From contig NZ_CAMLDX010000082.1 in the NCBI RefSeq assembly GCF_946478885.1, forward strand, positions 1-15,188: a DNA stretch of 15,188 bases, given 5' to 3'. Below the pieces are notes generated by a model that was given only the letters and a program-made list of their open reading frames with translations, was not told the DNA's origin and searched no databases. Below, piece after piece: positions 2,508 through 7,417 of the stretch. This DNA is from an uncultured Bacillus sp. GTDB lineage: Bacteria > Bacillota > Bacilli > Bacillales_B > DSM-18226. The number at the start of each line of letters is the position of its first letter. Positions within the stretch are counted from its first letter, which is position 1. The translations under genes were made by a program, and so were the position numbers.

Positions 2508-3009
2508 ACAAGTACCAGATCATAGATAAAGTAATGAAACATTATGCTGCGGATCCCTGATGAAAGGGACGTTTACACCACGGACGAAAGAAGTCTTACG
2601 AAGGTTTACAGCATGACTGAATTCCAAAGGAAAAATCCGGTTTGACTGGCAGAATTCTCAATATTCACGATTGTGTTTATGTTAAATTCCGAATTGATAG
2701 TCTTTTGGTGGGAATAGTACGCTGTATTGATAATAAGAACTTATTCATATCAAACTTTGGCAATAGAGCGCAGCAATTGTGTGGTTGAAAGGAAGCAAGA
2801 CAGGGCAAATACAATGCATCATTCTATTCAAATATTTATATGACTTAATGCCATACTAGGTTTATAGCATGTGTTAGAGCTTTTGACATGAAACAATTAA
2901 AATTTTTAGCAATTGTCAGAATGATGTCATGGATTTACATAAAGTAAGTGGTAAAATAGAAACAGATGTAAAAATTAGTAAAATGGAACGGACATGGGAG
3001 GCGGAGTCA
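2508..3009. other. Long degS-degU intergenic region (502 bp)
   Basis: No gene is recognisable. The stretch begins with a possible structured segment: TTATGCTG (2542-2549) can pair with CAGCATGA (2609-2616, one G-U pair), enclosing a TCCCT/AGGGA hairpin (2554-2569). Further on are a candidate promoter (2785-2815) and an inverted repeat, TGACAT-n4-CAATT against AATTG-n8-ATGTCA, at 2884-2929. An in-frame extension of degU back to 2929 is open but carries no family similarity. In B. subtilis, as I recall, the two genes are much closer together. Confidence 0.6.
2785..2815 (+). promoter_or_regulatory. Candidate sigma-A promoter for degU
   Basis: TTGAAA (2785-2790, 5/6 match) and TACAAT (2810-2815, 5/6 match) are separated by 19 bp, a rather long spacer. 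The position fits a degU-proximal promoter; B. subtilis degU has its own promoter within the operon. A perfect TTGACA at 2883-2888 has no acceptable -10 downstream. Confidence 0.35.
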
Positions 3010-3693
3010 TTGAGTACTAGAATCGTCATAATTGATGATCATCAACTATTTAGAGAAGGGGTTAAACGAATACTGGAGTTCGAGAAGTCCTTCGAGGTCG
3101 TGGCTGAGGGTAATGATGGAACAGAAGCAATGGAATTAGTAGAAAAATATCACCCTGATGTTGTGCTGATGGATATCAATATGCCTAATGTGAACGGAAT
3201 TGAAGCAACTCAGCAATTAATCGATAATTTTCCTGATTCAAAGGTCATTATTCTTTCTATTCATGATGATGAGAACTATGTAACACATGCGTTAAAGACA
3301 GGTGCCAGCGGCTATATGCTGAAGGAAATGGATGCCGACGCACTGATCGAAGCTATCAAAGTGGTTGCAGATGGAGGATCTTATTTACATCCGAAGGTGA
3401 CACATAACTTAGTAAAAGAGTACCGCCGTCTGGCATCTGAAGAAGGTTCAGGTAATCAATTCCTGCGTCAAATGGAAATCCGCCGGCCACTTCACCTGCT
3501 AACACGACGTGAATGTGAGGTTCTCCAGCTGTTAGCAGATGGAAAAAGCAATCGCGCTATCGGTGATGCATTATTTATCAGTGAAAAAACGGTTAAAAAC
3601 CACGTAAGCAACATTTTGCAAAAAATGAATGTAAACGACCGGACACAGGCAGTAGTTGTAGCCATTAAAAAGGGCTGGGTCGAAGTAAGATAA
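3010..3693 (+). CDS. degU: Response regulator DegU
   Basis: DegU is the NarL/LuxR-type response regulator phosphorylated by DegS; both phosphorylated and unphosphorylated forms act as transcription regulators. From a TTG start at 3010 it has 227 residues. The receiver domain (about 3-120) shows the acidic pair D9-D10, the phospho-acceptor D55 in LMDINMPN, S83 and K105. The C-terminal LuxR-type helix-turn-helix spans about 163-222 ([20 protein letters not shown] through [20 protein letters not shown]). The TTG is chosen because GGGAGG at 2996-3001 lies 8 nt upstream and the product then begins [14 protein letters not shown], aligned with B. subtilis DegU. The 27 extra codons back to ATG 2929 have no family counterpart. 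A terminator follows at 3819-3845. Confidence 0.96.
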
Positions 3694-3941: not shown

Positions 3942-4124
3942 TTATCAACATACGATTGTGAAAAAAGCAACTCCACTTTCGGTTTAGTTTGTTGATAACT
4001 CACTTTGAATTGTGGATAACTTTATAAAAAATGTGGGTAATCTATCCGTAAATATGGATAACCCTCCTGATTTTTGTTAATAACCGAAAAAACCCAGTGG
4101 ATAACTATCGACTTCTGTGGGTAA
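3942..4124. promoter_or_regulatory. DnaA-box array A, helically phased, upstream of degV
   Basis: The consensus box is TTATCCACA (reverse complement TGTGGATAA). One plus-oriented box, TTATCAACA, lies at 3942-3950. Seven minus-oriented boxes follow: TGTTGATAA 3990, TGTGGATAA 4011 (perfect), TGTGGGTAA 4032, TATGGATAA 4053, TGTTAATAA 4075 (two mismatches), AGTGGATAA 4096 and TGTGGGTAA 4116. The intervals are 21, 21, 21, 22, 21 and 20 bp, two helical turns, so all would lie on one face of the DNA. The 11-13 bp spacers are not conserved, but the base after the box is C in six of seven cases. DnaA is the obvious ligand; binding itself is inferred. Confidence 0.8.
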
Positions 4125-4294: not shown

Positions 4295-5140
4295 ATGAAA
4301 ACAGCAGTTGTAACGGATAGTACGGCCTATCTTCCGAAAGAAATAGCCGACAAGTATAACATACATATCATTCCTCTAAACGTGATTTTCGGTGAAGAGT
4401 CATATAAAGAGGAAATCGAGCTTACAGCCGAACACTTGTATCAGATGGTCAAAGAGAAGGAACTGCCGAAAACCTCTCAGCCGGCAATTGGTGATTTTGT
4501 GCAGCTTTTTGAAGAACTGTCGGAGGAATATGATGCCGTCATCTGCATCCATCTTTCAAGCGGCATCAGCGGAACATTCCAGGGAGCGATTGCTGCGGGA
4601 AATATGATGGAAAAAATTAAGGTCTATGCCTTTGACTCGGAAAGCAGCTGTATGGTTCAGGGCTTTTACGCGATTGAGGCTGCTAAAAGGGCATTTGCCA
4701 AGGAAAGTCCGGAGACGATTATGACGCATCTTGAGGTCATGAAGGGAACTGCAAGAGCCTACTTTATGGTCGATGATTTAGCCCATTTACAGCGTGGCGG
4801 ACGCCTCTCAAGTGCACAAGTGCTTATTGGAAGCTTGCTCCAGGTCAAACCCCTGCTTCATTTTGATGACAAGATCATTGTCCCCTTTGAAAAAGTTCGT
4901 ACCCGGAAAAAGGCGATGAAACGCATTGTTGAACTTCTCCATGAAGATACCAAAAACGGCGGTCAATACCAGGCTGTGATCATTCATGCAAACCGTGAAC
5001 AGGAAGCGATTGCCTGGCAGAATGAAATCCAAGCCAACCTGCCAAATGTAGAATTCTGCATTTCCTATTTCGGTGCCGTCATCGGTACCCATCTCGGTGA
5101 AGGCTCGATGGGTCTTGGCTGGACAAAAAAATATGAATAA
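4295..5140 (+). CDS. degV: DegV family fatty-acid-binding protein (FakB-like)
   Basis: This 281-residue soluble protein is a full-length DegV-family member, equal in size to B. subtilis DegV (YviA). Proteins of this family bind one fatty acid; the FakB members present it to the kinase FakA for phosphorylation and phospholipid synthesis. The conserved segments are all present: TDSTAYLPKE (7-16), TSQPAIG (60-66), the HLSSGISGTF signature (86-95), DLAHLQRGGRLSSA (161-174) and GTHLGEGSMG (264-273). The ATG at 4295 follows AAGGAAGG (4278-4285) at good spacing. The gene stands alone between a terminator upstream and a hairpin downstream. It is bracketed on both sides by DnaA-box clusters, which is unusual and could tie its transcription to DnaA. 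The family is certain; the specific lipid ligand is not. Confidence 0.94.
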   Translation: MKTAVVTDSTAYLPKEIADKYNIHIIPLNVIFGEESYKEEIELTAEHLYQMVKEKELPKTSQPAIGDFVQLFEELSEEYDAVICIHLSSGISGTFQGAIAAGNMMEKIKVYAFDSESSCMVQGFYAIEAAKRAFAKESPETIMTHLEVMKGTARAYFMVDDLAHLQRGGRLSSAQVLIGSLLQVKPLLHFDDKIIVPFEKVRTRKKAMKRIVELLHEDTKNGGQYQAVIIHANREQEAIAWQNEIQANLPNVEFCISYFGAVIGTHLGEGSMGLGWTKKYE

Positions 5141-5194: not shown

Positions 5195-5497
5195 TTATCC
5201 GCATCCCCAATTATTCTCCAGCTTATCCACAAAGTGTTGAAATTGATGCGGCACTTTATCCTCTTATTTTACCATTGCTGTTACCAATGGTATTACGTCC
5301 ATTACTCTTTCATAAGCATTTTATCCACAGACGATTCAAAAAACAAAGTGCTTTCTTATGTATTTATCCACATTTTCTTTGAAAATCATGTGTTTTTCAG
5401 AAAAATGAAGCGTATATCCACTATTTATCCACAAAATTATGAATGTTTTATCCACTACCTTAGAATAACCTTAACGGAATAGGATTAATTATCCACA
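5195..5497. promoter_or_regulatory. DnaA-box cluster B between degV and comFA
   Basis: Perfect plus-oriented TTATCCACA occurs five times, at 5223-5231, 5321-5329, 5364-5372, 5425-5433 and 5489-5497. One-mismatch boxes are TTATCCGCA at 5195-5203 and TTATCCACT at 5448-5456. Two-mismatch matches lie at 5256-5264 and 5414-5422. All point the same way and opposite to the main array upstream of degV. Distances from the last box (41, 64, 125, 168 and 294 bp) are close to whole multiples of 10.5 bp, except for the 5223 box. The last box ends 11 bp before the comFA Shine-Dalgarno, so DnaA binding could affect comFA expression. Occupancy is inferred. Confidence 0.83.
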
Positions 5498-5518: not shown

Positions 5519-7417
5519 GTGCGTTTTGCTATTGTAAAAAATAGGCTGATTCCGCAAATCCTGCTATCAGCTGCTGAAAATACTGTACCTATCTCCCAAA
5601 TGGATATCCCTCCCCAACCGGCAAGAAATACGGAATTTCCATTCAATGAAGGGCTGCAGCAGCAACTTGCCGGAAAACAGCTTCTGTTGGAAGAACTGCC
5701 ATTTGATTTACAAGATATACAAACACATTATGAAAATGGATATCTTGTCTATCGGAAGGGAATTGAATTTGAGAATCAAAAAGCAAAATGTGTCCGTTGC
5801 GGGAATAGGGAGCCCCATCTTTTTGCTAGTTTTCCATGTGCCCGCTGCGGCGAAGTCTGTCTTTATTGTCGGAAATGCATCATGATGGGAAGGGTGAGTG
5901 CTTGTAGTCCGCTGATTAGCTGGATTGGACCGGAACCTAAAGCGGTAGAAAAGTTACCAGTAAAAGAATGCCTGCAACCGCCTGCGCAGGCAGGATGGAC
6001 ACAACAGCCTGAAATGGAGCAAATACTATCTACTATCAGCAGGTCGATGAATAGAAATAAACAAGGATTCTGTAACTCTAACAACGGGGAAGAAATGAAG
6101 CTAGATGGAGAAGGGGCGTCATATACACCTTTTACATCTATTGATCTTTTTTATAATCAAGAAGAAGGGCTTGATGAACCGTTAGAAAACGAGGAGCTTC
6201 ATGAGGGACACCGGCTGCTTGACGGACATCAGCATCCCTTAAAGGGCCAGGATGATGCATCTCATTTTCTTTCAGAGAGTCATATCAAGCTAGATTCATA
6301 TCCCGCAATGAACCCCTCATCACATCCGTGCCATTCAGCTATCCCTACACAACGAGTTTCATTGCTACAGTGGAACGGCAAGCTTTCTCCAGGCCAAAGG
6401 CAGGCATCAGACCGGGTCGCTGAAGCCATCAGTCAATCACAATCATTACTAGTGTGGGCAGTGTGTGGAGCGGGCAAGACTGAGGTGCTATTTCAAGGGA
6501 TGAACAGAGCCTTGATGGAAGGAAAGCGTGTCTGCATCGCAACACCTAGAACCGATGTTGTACTGGAGCTCGCTCCCCGCCTGCAAAAAGTATTTCCCGC
6601 CATCCGCTCAGCCGTGTTATATGGGGGCAGCGAGGACCGCCATTTAAATGCGCCGCTTACCATTGCCACGACGCACCAGCTTCTTCGATTCTACCAAGCC
6701 TTTGACACAATGATTGTCGATGAAGTCGATGCTTTTCCATTTTCCGCTGAAGAAACCTTGCAATATGCAGTAGAGCAGGCCAGAAAGCCGACATCCTCGG
6801 TGATTTTCTTAACTGCCACCCCGACAGAATCTCTACAAAAGGAATGTCGTAAGGGGACAAGAAGCTTTGTCACAATCCCGGCTCGCTTTCATCGTTATGC
6901 CCTGCCTGTCCCGCGATTTGTCTGGTGCGGCCATTGGAGAAAGCTATTGAAAAAAGGGATGCTGCCTCCGAATGTTCTCCAATGGCTGAAGCAGCTTATT
7001 GCTACAGAAAAGCAGGCACTGCTCTTTTTCCCACGGATTGAACTAATGGAACAACTCCTTCCTATATTAAAAAAACTGCACCCTAACATTGAGTCTGTCC
7101 ATGCTGAAGACCCGCAGCGCAAGGAAAAGGTTCAGGCGATGCGACAAAGAGAAATTCCGATTTTATTAACGACTACAATATTAGAACGGGGCGTTACCTT
7201 TCCTAATCTCGATGTCGCTGTCCTAGGAGCGGAGGATAATATCTTCACCGAAAGTGCCCTTGTCCAAATCGCCGGTCGCGTCGGCCGCAGCCCATATTAT
7301 CCGACAGGGGACATCGCTTTCTTCCACTACGGAAAAACAGAAGCCATGGTCAAGGCCCGTAAGCAAATCATTAACATGAACAAAGAGGCAGAAAGAAAGG
7401 GAATGATTGATCATTAA
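5519..7417 (+). CDS. comFA: Late competence DNA helicase/translocase ComFA
   Basis: ComFA is the cytosolic ATP-dependent helicase-like motor needed for import of transforming single-stranded DNA. Cysteine pairs C91/C94, C107/C110 and C114/C117 plus C120 form the N-terminal zinc-binding region. The helicase core has Walker A CGAGKT (316-321), DEVD (401-404), LTATPT (431-436) and motif VI QIAGRVGR (583-590). At 632 residues it is far longer than B. subtilis ComFA (about 460). Roughly residues 138-280, between the zinc region and the QWNGKLSPGQ segment, are a hydrophilic Q/E/N/H/S-rich insertion I do not recognise. The extra CARC pair is also absent from my recollection of B. subtilis ComFA. The GTG start at 5519 follows GAGGTGATC (5508-5516), a long anti-SD match at short spacing. 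DnaA boxes crowd the upstream region. comFC follows without comFB. Confidence 0.95.
   Translation: MRFAIVKNRLIPQILLSAAENTVPISQMDIPPQPARNTEFPFNEGLQQQLAGKQLLLEELPFDLQDIQTHYENGYLVYRKGIEFENQKAKCVRCGNREPHLFASFPCARCGEVCLYCRKCIMMGRVSACSPLISWIGPEPKAVEKLPVKECLQPPAQAGWTQQPEMEQILSTISRSMNRNKQGFCNSNNGEEMKLDGEGASYTPFTSIDLFYNQEEGLDEPLENEELHEGHRLLDGHQHPLKGQDDASHFLSESHIKLDSYPAMNPSSHPCHSAIPTQRVSLLQWNGKLSPGQRQASDRVAEAISQSQSLLVWAVCGAGKTEVLFQGMNRALMEGKRVCIATPRTDVVLELAPRLQKVFPAIRSAVLYGGSEDRHLNAPLTIATTHQLLRFYQAFDTMIVDEVDAFPFSAEETLQYAVEQARKPTSSVIFLTATPTESLQKECRKGTRSFVTIPARFHRYALPVPRFVWCGHWRKLLKKGMLPPNVLQWLKQLIATEKQALLFFPRIELMEQLLPILKKLHPNIESVHAEDPQRKEKVQAMRQREIPILLTTTILERGVTFPNLDVAVLGAEDNIFTESALVQIAGRVGRSPYYPTGDIAFFHYGKTEAMVKARKQIINMNKEAERKGMIDH

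Follow-up and report, generated by a model that had tools for sequence, protein, structure and literature searches.

A helically phased, single-orientation array of DnaA-box-like 9-mers in the degU-degV gap of an uncultured Bacillus sp., together with a second cluster between degV and comFA, is best read as a DnaA-box cluster outside oriC (extra-oriC DBC), a known kind of element that occurs here at a site absent from the B. subtilis high-affinity list and with an unusual architecture. Judged from the sequence, and with a probability of roughly 0.52, DnaA would bind this DBC cooperatively on a single DNA face, and its main job would be DnaA sequestration. The window is the whole stretch of DNA analysed, with a length of 15,188 nt, and coordinates refer to it unless another locus is named.

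The gap is bordered on its left by the gene for the response regulator DegU (3010..3693, plus strand), whose start is taken as the TTG at 3010 from the ORF and from an alignment with the relatives' DegU, and it is followed by degV (4295..5140, plus strand), an ORF for a DegV family protein whose homologues carry Pfam PF02645. Between them, 7 co-oriented boxes occupy 135 bp (3990-4124) of the minus strand, on which mismatches are scored against the consensus TTATCCACA. Only the box at 4011..4019 is a perfect TTATCCACA with 0 mismatches. The boxes at 3990..3998 (TTATCAACA, with A at position 6 and taken as a weak type), 4032..4040 (TTACCCACA), 4053..4061 (TTATCCATA), 4096..4104 (TTATCCACT) and 4116..4124 (TTACCCACA) have 1 mismatch each, and the box at 4075..4083 (TTATTAACA), also taken as a weak type, has 2 mismatches. 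A further 9-mer with 1 mismatch (TTATCAACA, 3942..3950) lies on the plus strand, opposite to the array. All eight 9-mers are present where an earlier sequence-only reading had placed them, seven on the minus strand and the one at 3942 on the plus strand, and its step of 20-22 bp is reproduced when the steps are remeasured (21, 21, 21, 22, 21 and 20 bp), with a phasing at 10.5 bp of R = 0.96 (p ~5e-5 against uniform placement).

The same reading had called the site an array and not a simple tandem duplication, and this distinction is upheld by the spacers, whose likeness stays at the level set by base composition. Spacers share a mean pairwise identity of 0.29, where base composition would give 0.28, and boxes share 0.80, which rules out simple tandem duplication as the origin of the array. 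Local chance is excluded as well: with up to 2 mismatches allowed, the longest run of boxes at 20-22 bp is 7, while a run longer than 2 occurs in 0/5000 dinucleotide-shuffled versions of the 601-bp gap between degU and degV and a run longer than 3 occurs in 0/1000 shuffles of the whole window. Across the window, 17 boxes with at most 1 mismatch are observed and 4.26 are expected. The array therefore belongs among phased single-orientation arrays, defined by at least three co-oriented boxes, whole-turn spacing and unrelated spacers.

A second cluster, missing from the sequence-only reading, lies past degV on the plus strand (5195..5497). All seven of its boxes with at most 1 mismatch are on that single strand, and five are perfect: TTATCCGCA is found at 5195, TTATCCACA at 5223, 5321, 5364, 5425 and 5489, and TTATCCACT at 5448, with additional 2-mismatch words at 5256 and 5414. 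The cluster is weakly phased (R = 0.71 at 10.5 bp, p ~0.02), and a period of 14 bp suits it no less than one of 10.5 bp, the best-fitting value being 14.0. On its right, 21 bp past the last box, begins an ORF with a GTG start at 5519 (5519..7417, plus strand) that encodes a protein with DEAD and Helicase_C domains, which we take from gene order to be the competence helicase gene comFA. The gene order is accordingly degU, array, degV, second cluster and comFA, and the boxes read away from degV on either side, being minus-oriented upstream (except at 3942) and plus-oriented downstream. With 7 boxes in 135 bp and another 7 in 303 bp, the two sites qualify by sequence as an extra-oriC DBC. No Rfam family matches the window, and scans of the window for promoters and terminators remain near the shuffle level. 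Further upstream, the gap between degS and degU, which are usually adjacent genes, spans about 506 bp (2508-3009), whereas across 73 relatives its median is 57 bp and it never exceeds 190 bp.

A tree built by a quick method from the window and the 75 loci giving all three proteins joins the window with Niallia endozanthoxylica (SH-aLRT 99), its nearest named relative, at 76% identity over 855 columns. DegV proteins with 80-83% identity to that of the window exist in a protein search (P0002-P0007, encoded on metagenome contigs), and the best DegV identity among the matches listed from 193 Mesobacillus-family genomes is 73%. In the degU-degV gap of N. endozanthoxylica (L078), minus-oriented boxes with at most 1 mismatch are found at 5063, 5083, 5159 and 5180, with two more at 2 mismatches; they lie about -940 to -820 upstream of degV, and their phasing (R = 0.81 over four or six boxes) comes from too few boxes for a firm test. 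The expectation that close relatives would keep the boxes is therefore borne out in part: within the genus of N. endozanthoxylica, where 3/5 genomes have a degV match at the threshold and the other two have none, one of the three carries this partial same-orientation array and the other two have no box in the fetched degU-degV stretch. Since only one of these three carries a partial array, conservation of the window's own degU-degV array is thin, and parallel gain could account for the resemblance. Separately, a small Sda-family (PF08970) gene is located between degU and degV in many Bacillaceae, at L078:5442-5612 in N. endozanthoxylica; this degU-linked gene is apparently separate from the sda beside yqeG and is possibly a second sporulation checkpoint gene.

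Conservation is more extensive on the other side of degV. When 80 degV loci from named genomes are scanned over 700 bp upstream and 600 bp downstream, 8/80 have at least 5 boxes in the degV-comFA gap, and those 8 loci group together in a single clade (SH-aLRT 99), with Mesobacillus selenatarsenatis and M. subterraneus among its members; two other species, M. harenae and M. foraminis, fall outside the clade and have no box in the 700 bp upstream or 600 bp downstream. Within the M. selenatarsenatis genus as grouped by the search tool, here called the Mesobacillus group, 21 genomes were searched, and a phased degV-comFA array is present in all 20 that have a degV orthologue. The R(10.5) of these arrays ranges from 0.64 to 0.96, and the least significant phasing is that of L112 (p 0.048) and L106 (p 0.007). 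When the arrays are aligned, box positions match the reference at 93% and spacers at 61%, and the boxes exceed the spacers for 20/20 choices of the reference; a more circular variant, in which the box columns are taken from the same alignment, yields 92% versus 64%. Spacer 4-5 is 41-42 bp long in most arrays, 51-52 bp in L099, L101 and L110, and 31 bp in L112, so that its variants are about one turn longer or shorter. In L097, L103 and L111, an insertion of about 140-190 bp with related sequence lies between degV and an intact array.

The order of box types is also retained across the 20 degV-comFA arrays. The perfect word TTATCCACA occupies position 1 in 15/20, position 4 in 14/20 and position 7 in 19/20 genomes, while position 2 is TTATCAACA in 18/20, position 5 is TTACCAACA or TTATCAACA in 19/20, and position 6 is mixed. 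Boxes 2, 3 and 5 nearly always have A at position 6 and boxes 1, 4 and 7 are mostly TTATCCACA; strong and weak boxes keep their places, which suggests that weak boxes are being kept weak. The boxes extend through the gap almost as far as the start of comFA, with the last box close to it. Because the tree separates the window from the Mesobacillus clade that bears the array, the window's second cluster and the Mesobacillus array could have arisen by independent gain, or the history could include loss.

Phased triplets, searched as three TTAYYMACA words separated by 11-13 bp gaps (two-turn spacing), occur well beyond these loci. They are found in 31/397 genomes of the order, including the look-alike G172, with 5/397 in a reversed-pattern control, and in 47/193 genomes of the family, or 46 after removal of the repeat in G411, with 1/193 in the control. 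As for such arrays being frequent by chance, triplets are uncommon in the family, yet they are recurrent, and the window array is not unique but part of a wider class. A three-turn triplet (22-24 bp gaps) is found in 33/193 family genomes, a count taken before any filter for coding repeats, and a triplet offset by a half turn (16-18 bp gaps, 25-27 bp steps) is found in 0/193. Because triplets exist at two and three turns and none exists at the half-turn offset, co-oriented boxes in the family keep to the same DNA face, two or three turns apart. A very similar three-turn cluster is common to many family genomes (G442-G445, G452-G463, G323 and others); many of the three-turn matches resemble one another and probably descend from one ancestral cluster, so that each match cannot be counted as a separate event. 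In the order, six genomes (L141-L146) share a phased triplet by a gene that resembles, by eye, an RlmCD/TrmA-type methyltransferase gene, at a site that is not among the eight high-affinity DnaA regions of B. subtilis.

Repeats of 21 bp that are exact or coding and have DnaA-box-like words can mimic phased arrays, and scans of this type need a filter. For example, the look-alike L128 (G172, from the order set) is an exact 21-bp tandem repeat at 1501-1635, L165/L203 (G411, prfB-yitT) has spacers that are 83% alike within a 148-aa ORF, and L167, one of two G476 matches, falls within a repetitive Gly-Tyr-Pro-rich 124-aa ORF. The G411 match and this G476 match were dropped from the arrays as repeat or coding sequence.

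The genes that surround the arrays vary. Among the 46 triplet genomes, 18 belong to the Mesobacillus genus and have every match in the degV-comFA gap. In 19 of the 28 others, the array is near a lipoprotein gene, and the lipoprotein at L191 carries Cu-oxidase domains by Pfam; the remaining sites are secA-prfB (2), uvrB (1, in G476), gcp-ydiF (1) and other or unrecognised neighbours (5), with neighbour genes named by eye except for those run through Pfam. The array and degV share one contig in 18 of these 28 genomes, at distances of 7.6-93 kb, and lie on different contigs in 9/28, while G476 has no degV match. The two secA-prfB arrays, placed relative to degV alone, are 7.6 and 12.1 kb from it.

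The chromosomal zone of the arrays that could be placed, in contrast to their neighbours, is shared. A dnaA gene was sought in 17 genomes, and with G023 (which has no strict triplet), G411 and the one G476 match excluded from the placement set, the 15 two-turn arrays of 15 chromosome-scale genomes are all found on the left arm, 9.4-18.0% of the contig from dnaA. Five of them are degV-comFA arrays, 8 are lipoprotein-linked, 1 is at uvrB and 1 (G530) has no recognised site, and the 15 amount to only about four independent placements. The 33 three-turn matches and the G475 gcp-ydiF match are outside the placed set and may lie elsewhere. From its gene order, the window itself would be expected in the same left-arm zone. 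A shared zone with changing neighbours favours DnaA sequestration and a role in dosage or timing over the control of one gene.

According to the sequestration reading, several DnaA molecules would bind the same DNA face in one common direction, with two helical turns from each to the next. Co-oriented DnaA would bind cooperatively, perhaps as a head-to-tail oligomer, in which the strong boxes would nucleate binding and the weak boxes, those with A at position 6, would be occupied only at high DnaA levels. In relatives the array site is on the left arm, separated from oriC by about a tenth to a sixth of the chromosome, and it would be copied fairly early after initiation; the dosage of the array would double on copying, so that free DnaA would fall and re-initiation would be delayed. 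In B. subtilis, deleting six DBCs leads to early initiation, according to the available portions of PMC5295017 and PMC13220808; those of PMC5295017 also state that, unlike E. coli, B. subtilis has no identified clusters that play a significant role.

A different function for bound DnaA, to which we give a clearly smaller but still sizeable chance, is that of a transcription factor for degV, comFA or an Sda-like checkpoint gene, which would couple competence or sporulation to the replication state. The closeness of the Mesobacillus-group boxes to the comFA start is consistent with this function, as is the Sda-family gene (PF08970, E 2.2e-6) that follows the array in N. endozanthoxylica, and sda is a DnaA-activated gene in B. 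subtilis in the part of PMC4447404 at hand. Further, Sda-like ORFs are found upstream of degV in 24/80 relatives, counting an ORF that lies in the degU-degV gap or, at loci with no degU match, one within 2 kb; the search profile was itself built from 11 of the 24 positive loci, and Pfam was run on two of the 24. However, the same profile search finds no Sda-like ORF in the window gap, the neighbours change among degV-comFA, secA-prfB, uvrB and a lipoprotein with Cu-oxidase domains while the placed arrays share a zone, and one genome group has its array downstream, not upstream, of the lipoprotein gene. Control of degV, which the sequence-only reading had offered as one function, gains no special support because most arrays in relatives adjoin other genes.

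The array could instead alter DnaA activity as a Bacillaceae counterpart of datA/DARS, with a same-face oligomer that promotes ATP hydrolysis or nucleotide release, although we regard this as unlikely. Its single orientation, its helical phasing and its strong/weak order, conserved in 20 genomes, would suit such an activity, and the placed arrays keep to a zone relative to dnaA, as E. coli datA/DARS do in the portion of PMC4585315 available. Against it, datA depends on IHF, which B. subtilis lacks according to the accessible parts of PMC5295017 and PMC13220808; the latter describes as unknown whether B. subtilis has regulators of ATP/ADP-DnaA. A broader proposal, to which we also give a low probability, joins sequestration with this activity: the phased, single-orientation, strong/weak-ordered array of Bacillaceae would be a dosage timer that acts through a same-face DnaA oligomer, may alter the nucleotide state of DnaA and would be the missing datA/DARS counterpart, rebuilt at different intergenic sites in different lineages but within one left-arm zone about a tenth to a sixth from oriC. 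If true, Bacillaceae would time replication by arrays in which selection acts on the zone and on the geometry, with boxes on the same face, in one direction and of conserved weak and strong types, and not on the gene context. Because the array is compact and its geometry is known, it offers a direct test of cooperativity, phase dependence and dosage.

The identity of the ligand is suggested by the words themselves, which match the DnaA consensus, as the sequence-only reading had proposed. Exact TTATCCACA is the commonest word in the phased-array class. Further, phased triplets are also present at the gcp/tsaD-ydiF and ywlB-ywlC sites of other genomes (L123, L126, L140, L147 and L166; genes assigned by eye, two confirmed by Pfam), and the corresponding gcp-ydiF and ywlB-ywlC regions are bound with high affinity by B. 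subtilis DnaA in vitro, as listed in Table 1 of the PMC4447404 text available. The box repertoire is nevertheless distinct: in the 20 degV-comFA arrays, which hold at least 129 words, TTATCAACA accounts for 31, and it accounts for 2/7 words with at most 1 mismatch in the window's upstream gap (one being the plus-oriented 3942), as compared to 1/64 in nine canonical DBC stretches from three genomes and 0/12 at oriC in one genome. Because the array repertoire differs from those of DBCs and oriC, the affinity of DnaA for some boxes may be low. This difference, together with the A at position 6 conserved at fixed places, would also fit a DNA-binding protein other than DnaA with a preference for TTAYYMACA-like words spaced by whole turns, but we consider its occupancy of the array very improbable, since no word is commoner than the perfect DnaA consensus and phased triplets recur at DBCs that DnaA binds in B. 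subtilis.

Several canonical DBCs can be recognised by eye from their genes in G001, G003 and G005 of the Mesobacillus group, and those checked are mostly of mixed orientation and mostly unphased. In this set, one strand of the gcp-ydiF DBC shows phasing (R 0.86, p 0.006), as does one strand of rpmH-dnaA weakly (R 0.81, p 0.025); ywlB-ywlC and yydA show no phasing, and yydA has its boxes on a single strand. The degV-comFA array is therefore the clearest, though not the sole, phased cluster. As for the arrays having arisen by chance or from a repeat, whether coding or a decayed tandem one, look-alikes do exist (L128; L165/L203 of G411; L167 of G476), but the shuffles and unrelated spacers contradict it for the window, conservation in relatives and the half-turn control contradict it for the class, and it is scarcely credible.

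The site had been said, as far as was known, not to be a described Bacillus locus, and the available sources are in line with this. The degU-degV and degV-comFA gaps are absent from the eight high-affinity B. subtilis DnaA regions in Table 1 of PMC4447404 as available, and the main text of that paper does not mention degU, yviA or comFA. Among open-licence papers, nothing was found that joins "DnaA box" with degV, and the sole match for "DnaA box" with comFA is, from its visible part, a Streptococcus genome paper. For DnaA boxes with helical turns or the same face, the DnaA papers among the matches listed deal, as far as their visible text goes, with replication origins and initiation.

Among known systems, the B. 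subtilis DBCs (gcp-ydiF, ywlB-ywlC, yqeG-sda, yydA, jag-trmE and ywcI-vpr) resemble the window in having dense intergenic DnaA boxes outside oriC, although the window site is not one of their locations. The promoter region of B. subtilis sda is similar to the N. endozanthoxylica locus, where a DnaA-box array is near an Sda-family gene, but the window, with no Sda-like ORF, does not classify as an sda-type promoter. The left half of E. coli oriC shares with the array its same-orientation boxes, which there support head-to-tail DnaA oligomers (PMC10316083, part seen); unlike it, the window array has two-turn spacing, and no dnaA or dnaN is recognised by eye among the window ORFs. E. coli DnaA also prefers pairs of boxes 2-3 bp apart, a spacing unlike that of the array, according to the accessible section of PMC11317965. 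Finally, although the order of boxes in the array differs from that of datA, DARS1 and DARS2, and B. subtilis has no IHF (PMC13220808, available portion), these three E. coli loci are, like the placed arrays, stretches of DnaA boxes in non-coding DNA whose relative distance from oriC is conserved, and in the available text of PMC4585315 a role in dosage or timing is proposed from the conservation of that distance.
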